64,000 nt of DNA from Coriobacteriaceae bacterium EMTCatB1 (GTDB lineage Bacteria > Actinomycetota > Coriobacteriia > Anaerosomatales > Anaerosomataceae): NCBI GenBank assembly GCA_001950395.1, contig BDLO01000001.1, positions 62,001 to 126,000 on the forward strand, given 5' to 3'. Under the pieces are notes generated by a model that was not told the DNA's origin, searched no databases, and saw only the letters and a list, made by a program, of their open reading frames with translations. A program made the translations under genes and the position numbers. Each line of letters opens with the position of its first letter. Positions within the stretch are counted from its first letter, which is position 1. Below, in pieces: positions 22,022 to 37,955 of the stretch.

Positions 22022-22890
22022 GCCGGCTCCGAGAAGCCCTCGAGCGAGGCGAGTTCGTCATCACGGGCGAGATCGCCCCGCCGCGCGGAAGCGACGTCTC
22101 TGCGATGCGCGAGACGATGGCGCTCGTCGGTCCGCTGTGCCACGCGCTCAACATCACGGACAATCAGGGCGCTTCGCTCCACATGTCGAGCCTGGGCGCG
22201 TGCCTGGTGGCGCTCGAGATGGGGTTCGAGCCGATCTTCCAGCAAACGTGCCGCGACCGGAACCGGCTCGCCCTGCAATCAGACCTCATGGCCGCGTGGG
22301 CGCTCGGCATCGAGAACGTCCTTATGGTGACGGGCGACGACCCGCGGAGCGGCGACCACCCGCAAGCGAAGGGCGTCTTCGACGTCGACTCGACGCAGCT
22401 TCTTCGCATCGCCAAAGACATGAACGAGGGCAGGGACATGCAGGGCCGTCCGCTTGCTGGCGGCACGGGGTTCTACCTGGGCGCCGCCATGTTCCCTGAA
22501 GCCGAGCCGTGGGACGCGCAACTGGCTCGCACCGTCGGCAAGATCGAGGCGGGCGCCCGGTTCTTCCAGACACAGGCCGTCTTCGACCTTGAGAAGCTGG
22601 CGCGTGCGGTGGATGCTCTGCACGCGCACGGCGCGAAGGTCATCGCTGGCGTGCTCTTCTTGCGCAGCCCGCGCGTCATCGACTTCGTGAACGAGCACCT
22701 CGCCGGGCTGAGGGTCCCCGATCACGTCGCGAGACGAATCAAGAGCGCTCCTGACCCGCTCGAGGCGGCGATCGACCTTGCCGTCGAACAGGTGGCTGCT
22801 ATCCGCGAGATCGCCGACGGAGTCCACGTCATGCCGCTCGGTCTCGATGGCCGCGTGCCCGAGGTCTTGGAGCGGGCCGGCGTGCTTTGA
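22018..22890 (+). CDS. metF: Methylenetetrahydrofolate reductase, MetF
   Basis: Reduces 5,10-methylene-THF to 5-methyl-THF for MetH, and in acetogenic or related metabolism for the methyl branch. 290 residues, FAD-dependent TIM barrel. VITGEIAPPRGSD at the N-terminus holds the catalytic glutamate, and NVLMVTGDDPRSGDHP and the C-terminal GGTGFYLGAAMFPE and RFFQTQAVFD are typical. The start is the ATG of the ATGA overlap with metV; the longer ORF is a shadow. Last gene of the methionine operon. About 150 bases of non-coding DNA follow, with only a weak 6-bp hairpin (GCGAGC/GCTCGC at 22921-22946). Confidence 0.94.
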   Translation: MSRLREALERGEFVITGEIAPPRGSDVSAMRETMALVGPLCHALNITDNQGASLHMSSLGACLVALEMGFEPIFQQTCRDRNRLALQSDLMAAWALGIENVLMVTGDDPRSGDHPQAKGVFDVDSTQLLRIAKDMNEGRDMQGRPLAGGTGFYLGAAMFPEAEPWDAQLARTVGKIEAGARFFQTQAVFDLEKLARAVDALHAHGAKVIAGVLFLRSPRVIDFVNEHLAGLRVPDHVARRIKSAPDPLEAAIDLAVEQVAAIREIADGVHVMPLGLDGRVPEVLERAGVL

Positions 22891-23045
22891 GCGCGCTGAC
22901 CGCACGTCGCACGGGGCTTTGCGAGCGGTTCTCACGGCTGGCTCGCGGTCGTCACATTCCCTTCAGCCCGTCACCCAGGGCGGCTCGCGCTCGTTACTTC
23001 GGTGAAGAGAGATAAACCAAGCTCCGGGAATCGGGGGCCGCATGG

Positions 23046-37208: not shown

Positions 37209-37237
37209 TTGCACGGTCGCACAGAGCTGGGTATAGT
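37209..37237 (+). promoter_or_regulatory. Consensus promoter for a non-coding RNA
   Basis: TTGCAC (37209-37214), 17-base spacer, TATAGT (37232-37237): one of the two best promoters in the window. The predicted start at about 37244 coincides with the first base of the 5' arm of the terminal helix described for the downstream RNA. No convincing coding gene follows on this strand for about 800 bases. Confidence 0.78.
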
Positions 37238-37243
37238 CCGTGT

Positions 37244-37417
37244 TGTCCCGAGAGGTCGATCCGGGCGAACCGCGAAAGGCAGCGTACCAGCAGCTGCCGG
37301 CGGGGCAGGAGTCGAAGGGTCAGCGAAAGCAGGCCGGACGCTCAGGTCCCAAAGGTAAGAAACGGGAAGCCGCCGAGTACCGGAGCCGCCGGAGAGGTTT
37401 CTCGGGACACCTCTTTT
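37244..37417 (+). ncRNA. Candidate free-standing structured RNA, about 174 nt
   Basis: The transcript expected from the consensus promoter would begin with TGTCCCGAGA (37244-37253), which is perfectly complementary to TCTCGGGACA at 37400-37409, so its two ends pair in a 10-bp helix. Inside are a GGCAGC/GCTGCC hairpin (about 37279-37299) and a possible CCGGCGG/CCGCCGG pairing (about 37297-37303 with 37386-37392), with purine-rich unpaired GAAAG and GGUAAGAAAC segments. A local terminator (AGAGGT/ACCTCT with a 10-base loop, then TTTT; 37393-37417) ends it. The 3' arm of the terminal helix lies in the terminator loop, so the two folds compete. I cannot match it to a named family; 6S-like or raiA-type RNAs are possible comparisons. 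Confidence 0.55.
37393..37417 (+). terminator. Terminator of the candidate RNA
   Basis: AGAGGT, 10-base loop, ACCTCT followed by TTTT and a second pyrimidine-rich stretch. It also faces the end of the leftward XRE gene (37428). Confidence 0.6.
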
Positions 37418-37427
37418 CTCCGGCTTT

Positions 37428-37955
37428 TCACGCGCCCTGCTCTCGTCGAAGCAATGCGTCGGCCGCCGATCGCACCACCGGGTCAGGATGGTGATCGCGG
37501 ACGCCGCGAAGGGCGCGAAGGGGTGCGTCGGCGAGCCGGCGCAGCGCAGCGCACGCCGCCAACGCGTGTTCACGGTCGCCCCATTCGGCGGTCCGAGCGA
37601 GCTCGGACACGGCGCGCTCCACTGTCTCGGCCGCGCTCGACTGCGCATGGTTCCGTCGATCGTCTGCCGTCGATGGTCTGGTGGTCCTCACCAGCAGCAC
37701 CGCCGCCCAGGACGCGGTCTCGACGCCGTATCGGGCGCACATCCGCTCGGCGAGCGCCTCTCCCACGAGCTCCTGGGGCGGGAGCCCGAAGTGATCGGCA
37801 AGCGCGAGGATGGCAGAAGGAGATGCGGTGCGCTCGCCCCGCTCGATGCGGGAGAGCATCGCCACGCTCAGGCCTGTTGCACGGGACACGTCGTGCAGCG
37901 TCTCGTTCCTCGAGACGCGGAGCGCGCGGAGGGTCTGTCCGATGCCAGTGGCCAC
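37428..37955 (-). CDS. XRE-family transcriptional regulator with helical C-terminal domain
   Basis: A 175-residue DNA-binding protein. The N-terminal helix-turn-helix (about 5-60: IGQTLRALRVSRNETLHDVSRATGLSVAMLSRIERGER) is the Cro/CI type. The C-terminal part (from about 75) is helical with Arg- and Asp-rich repeats that look HEAT-like (DREHALAACAALRRLADAPLRALRGVRDHHPDP). GTG 37955 starts six bases after TAGAAT, so the mRNA is probably leaderless. A palindrome between its -10 and -35 suggests autoregulation. Divergent from a small Cys/His protein gene. Confidence 0.85.
   Translation of the reverse strand: MATGIGQTLRALRVSRNETLHDVSRATGLSVAMLSRIERGERTASPSAILALADHFGLPPQELVGEALAERMCARYGVETASWAAVLLVRTTRPSTADDRRNHAQSSAAETVERAVSELARTAEWGDREHALAACAALRRLADAPLRALRGVRDHHPDPVVRSAADALLRREQGA

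Follow-up and report, generated by a model that had tools for sequence, protein, structure and literature searches.

6S RNA (RF00013) resembles the RNA that we describe here in its length, in being a rod with paired ends, and in having its own promoter, but it also has a wide central bubble, which is lacking here. Bacterial Y RNAs resemble our RNA in three respects: the two ends of the molecule form a conserved stem, the interior varies, and the 3' end is U-rich. However, no tRNA-like module, as in the Y RNAs, was called in our RNA, and there is no Ro/rsr (Ro60) gene among the identified neighbors of its copies. The raiA motif RNA, or ModT (RF03072), is likewise free-standing and structured, with a similar length (about 200 nt) and strong conservation in Actinomycetota (and Bacillota), but it has a model that our RNA does not match. 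The ModT report (PMC11706538) describes an abundant and stable RNA that is possibly associated with protein and that modulates growth transitions. Few bacterial RNAs are as conserved and as structured as the one here without having a known role, and the comparable RNAs (6S and raiA/ModT) proved to be abundant regulators.

We analyzed a window of 64,000 nucleotides from Coriobacteriaceae bacterium EMTCatB1. It almost certainly contains a gene for an RNA of about 170 nt. The structured part lies on the forward strand, as do all of its features below, at 37245..37411 of the window (G000:C1:99245-99411), and it scores 144.5 bits against R1, a covariance model of 66 copies. The gene occupies the intergenic gap between the end of gatB (37126) and a convergent gene of the XRE family (37428-37955, minus strand). 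A sequence-only reading of this gap had proposed a free-standing structured RNA with its own near-consensus promoter, and the coordinates that it gave for the promoter, the arms of an end helix, the arms of a terminator, and a U-tract were all correct. That there is such an RNA is supported by conservation of the promoter, by covariation, and by comparison to shuffled folds: the RNA strand folds at −81 kcal/mol (z = −2.87), and 1/200 shuffles was equally good.

A DNA search of 61 genomes gave a match in 60 of them, and the window's own genome has a second copy (G000:C1:572290-572474). With a strict DNA pattern and one genome per GTDB species (85,462 species), we found 57 stretches, all of them in records whose titles refer to Coriobacteriia, Anaerosomatales, or Actinobacteria of other, loosely given names. 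The strict pattern had no matches in viral contigs, and phages and plasmids were likewise without a match. Across all phyla only this pattern was used; the covariance models were run on Actinomycetota-level sets. Among 300 genomes of the class, R1 identified 63, all from Anaerosomatales (63/69 of the members of the order that were sampled), with 1-3 copies in each. Outside of the class, there were 17 clear genomes, all from one other class of Actinomycetota; with R2, a model for this second class, 28/36 of its genomes were positive, or 24/26 of those of good quality. A third class gave weak matches (E of 5e-6 to 6e-5) in 4/7 sampled members of one family. Most of these have in common the end helix, GYCCCAAGRAGUCGG ... 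GAAGGUUYCUUGGGRC, and differ in the interior. Elsewhere in the window's class, the RNA was not seen in any family that was sampled from another order (one of these searches lacked a positive control), so related lineages apparently manage without it. Two further matches, in G334 (E = 0.08) and antisense at L041 (E = 0.008), were taken to be due to chance. Within Anaerosomatales and the second class, the RNA seems to have been inherited vertically. Its near-universal presence in the order and in most of the second class, at times in duplicate, along with invariant loops and a strongly conserved end helix, implies that it has an important job. The host lineages are known almost solely from metagenomes.

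The −35 element of the promoter (TTGCAC, 37209..37214) and the −10 element (TATAGT, 37232..37237) are separated by a spacer of 17 bases. The claim that this promoter is near-consensus was right about its positions and is backed by conservation in relatives, but TTGCAC is identical to TTGACA at only 3/6 positions, and in a consensus scan neither TTGCAC/TATAGT nor the terminator (AGAGGT/ACCTCT) passed. Despite the poor −35 box, we consider the promoter to be credible because its position is kept in relatives: they have TTGC or TTGAC at the same place, they retain the TA...T of the −10 element, and both classes have an upstream promoter at the equivalent spot, which in most copies from the second class includes a perfect TTGACA. 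The transcript probably starts around 37244/37245. A pyrimidine- and U-rich tail beyond the end helix (37409..37428) is the probable end of the transcript: across all copies, the fraction of T in the 14 bases that are 3' of the RNA is 0.41, versus 0.21 further downstream. A separate terminator-like hairpin lies within 90 bases of the RNA in 28/97 copies, as compared to 8 in shuffles.

The RNA is a rod that consists of an end helix, further helices, invariant internal loops, and a tip that is capped by a GNRA loop. In the end helix, P1, GTCCCGAGAGGTC (37245..37257) pairs with GGTTTCTCGGGAC (37396..37408), about 140 bases beyond it, to form 13 base pairs. (TGTCCCGAGA at 37244-37253 has its exact complement, TCTCGGGACA, at 37400-37409.) Next is P2 (5' side 37261..37267), where CC at 37261-37262 and GCG at 37265-37267 pair with 37391-37392 and 37387-37389, respectively. 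It is followed by P3, where CCG (37270..37272) pairs with 37381-37383 and every pair shows double changes within the family. Internal loop I has a conserved GAAAG (37274..37278) facing GAGTA (37375-37379), and then P4 is formed by GCAGC (37279..37283) and GCCGC (37369-37373). In internal loops II and III, a conserved GTACCAGCAG (37284..37293) faces AAACGGGAA (37360-37368); they contain the CC/GG pairs 37287-37288/37364-37365, which are two invariant C-G pairs. The remaining parts are P5 (CTGCC at 37294..37298, with 37354-37359), P6 (GGGG at 37302..37305, with TCCC at 37347-37350), and the apical hairpin P7 (37318..37335), which is closed by a GNRA loop (GC-GAAA-GC) and is the least conserved part of all. 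The inner helices that had been drawn from the window alone (GGCAGC/GCTGCC and CCGGCGG/CCGCCGG) had no more covariation than shuffles, and the helices above replace them.

This rod is supported by compensatory changes. In 66 copies from Anaerosomatales, with a structure drawn by hand, 92.5% of cells are paired and two-sided changes occur at 23/42 pairs; the covariation score is 0.304, versus 0.171 if shuffled and at most 0.09 if slid. In 67 copies from both classes, 90.6% of cells are paired, double changes occur at 33/45 pairs (418 double-change cells versus 136), and the covariation score is 0.461, versus 0.212 if shuffled; because this alignment was fitted to the model, its figures lean towards the model. 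As an independent check, we aligned 18 copies from the second class with MAFFT, using no prior structure, and RNAalifold recovered the identical architecture. The proposal of an end-to-end helix was thus borne out, as P1 was recovered from the second class alone and its pairs 1 and 2 show two-sided changes there (though never within Anaerosomatales). Between the two classes, identity is 82% in the internal loops, 73% in P1, 42% in the rest, and 34% at the tip. Together, the DNA matches in 60/61 relatives and the covariation over 66-67 copies are decisive against a chance resemblance.

Could the stretch instead encode a small protein or be a piece of mobile DNA? There is an 84-codon ORF, each genome has 1-3 copies, and the ends are inverted repeats. 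But the lengths of the copies are spread evenly over the three reading frames (30/33/34), so no conserved protein is encoded, as the earlier reading had held. Also against this explanation are the compensatory changes in 33/45 pairs, the retained synteny, the vertical-looking tree, and the lack of matches in phages, plasmids, and viral contigs. We give this explanation almost no credence.

The genes around the RNA bear on whether it acts in cis. The genes that converge on the ancestral copy are queD, RNase H, and one for a zinc-ribbon protein (CT398), and behind the copy is a gene of the DtxR type. The second class has kept RNase H and CT398 in the vicinity, together with CobO/queD or UbiD/cation-efflux genes. 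In a FastTree tree, the copies near gat genes, among them the one in the window, make up a single clade that is nested within the queD-linked copies, which implies a single duplication and relocation, and the window copy's position after gatB is the product of that event. At most loci the downstream gene is convergent (queD or CobO; the XRE gene here), and in a few copies it is on the same strand. Because the neighbors differ between the two sites and are mostly convergent, control of a neighbor in cis is disfavored; given the ancestral arrangement and the single gat clade, no single neighboring gene appears to be a target in cis. These results also weigh against a riboswitch or attenuator leader, in which a terminator would compete with the end helix, as in the sequence-only reading. 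That idea was reasonable in that AGAGGT (37393-37398) and ACCTCT (37408-37413), which is followed by TTTTCT, overlap the 3' strand of P1. However, the overlapping pairing does not covary (4.41/6 positions pair, versus 4.32 in shuffles), most loci have a convergent gene next to the RNA, and the neighboring genes vary among copies, so a riboswitch is very improbable. Separately, some genomes (L066, L069, L070, L084, L121, and L039) have a pair of copies within 0.4-2.6 kb of one another. The two are oriented either in tandem or oppositely, and they lie around the DtxR gene or close to gatB.

The RNA does not belong to a family in Rfam 15 (4227 models), as there was no match in the window's stretch (E ≤ 5) or in the RNA of 38 relative loci (E ≤ 5 or E ≤ 2). 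The suggestion that it is undescribed therefore stands, and we found nothing relevant in the open-access literature on structured RNAs in Anaerosomatales, OPB41, or Coriobacteriia. The family is new as compared to Rfam and open-access papers, rather than to the entire literature, and its mechanism may be of a known kind. The suggestion that it is 6S-like or of the raiA type failed, as both genuine genes are elsewhere in the same genome. For raiA, RF03072 matched neither the window's stretch nor any of 16 loci at E ≤ 5, and the true raiA RNA is a separate gene at G000:C1:243291-243515 (E = 4e-43, 162.7 bits). RNase P was considered because of the CT398/RNase H neighborhood, but the genome encodes RNase P RNA separately (287.5 bits), this RNA has a different sequence and fold, and ours does not match RF00010. 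The two genes are about 530 bases apart in one second-class family (L174).

A 6S-like regulator, which would bind RNA polymerase by imitating a melted promoter, might be expected to look much like this: about 170 nt, a single rod with paired 5' and 3' ends, and its own promoter. However, the genome has a separate 6S gene (44.4 bits, slightly below the cut-off), and 6S RNA was found in 20/21 genomes tested (above the cut-off in 14/21). RF00013 matches neither the window's stretch nor the relative loci. Also, there is no large single-stranded central bubble: the structure that is supported by covariation has only small internal loops, and these are invariant. Hence identity with 6S RNA is rejected, and a 6S-like function seems unlikely.

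The conservation of the loops is also informative about other mechanisms. Across the family, the invariant internal loops are GAAAG/GAGUA and GUACCAGYAGC/GAAACGGGAA, and from their sequences, loops I-III look like modules of the loop-E/sarcin-ricin type (AGUA or GUA facing GAA). A trans-acting small RNA that controls mRNAs by base-pairing would be free-standing, with its own promoter and a U-rich 3' end, as observed. But the invariant nucleotides are in paired regions or in closed internal loops, not in an exposed seed, and structure is kept over the entire length, which makes base-pairing a doubtful explanation. Another option is a self-contained RNA that binds a ligand, or a ribozyme, working in trans. 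The stacked invariant loops and the GNRA tip do resemble a tertiary core, but there is no downstream gene or expression platform, and the conservation suggests no cleavage site, so we view this option as improbable, too.

Instead, we propose that this is a stable housekeeping RNA of about 170 nt that acts in trans. A conserved protein or protein complex would bind the strongly conserved end helix, and the stacked internal loops would be a docking or functional surface. We favor a protein-bound RNA because P1 and the loops are kept while the tip changes, and in divergent members, which retain P1, the whole interior changes. The same invariant loops could also result from tertiary contacts within the RNA, from contacts with another RNA, or from binding of a small-molecule ligand, and the apparent absence of the RNA from the other orders of the class counts against our proposal. 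A ribonucleoprotein role, with binding via P1 and the loops, is the likeliest mechanism, but as it was deduced from conservation, we would call it an even bet. The broader proposal, that there is a new family of housekeeping RNAs in Actinomycetota that spans three classes, with a shared end helix and differing interiors, and that forms a ribonucleoprotein beside 6S, raiA, and RNase P, has about the same standing: it could well go either way. With the alignment and the covariance model, the RNA is directly testable.

Several variants of the RNA were seen. In the third class (L228-L231 and L218, family f44), P1 is kept and the interior is different, with GGAAAUGCGG...AAAGUACGG in several; these look like a sister subfamily. 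Shortened or divergent members (L220:2001-2086, L187:4001-4138, L216, L217, and L221), one of them only 86 nt, have the promoter and P1 as usual, with an interior that is different or missing. In the second class, an element of about 45 nt, CCCCCANGGTTRAYAGAGRCA...TCTCGARAACCC..TGGGGG, lies directly 3' of one copy of the RNA (L173-L175, L170:3402-3422, L187, L216, L217, L222, L223, and L227). There is exactly one such element per genome in 11/16 genomes (0 for a control pattern), and it is possibly a structured terminator or a 3' domain. Public metagenome-assembled genomes that are labelled Slackia or Aeromicrobium (L077, L081, L114, and L120) have copies of the Anaerosomatales type, so they are probably mislabelled. 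Finally, ARAGORN calls a tRNA-Gln(ttg) at 22852-22948 of the window that, at 97 bases, is unusually long for this tRNA.
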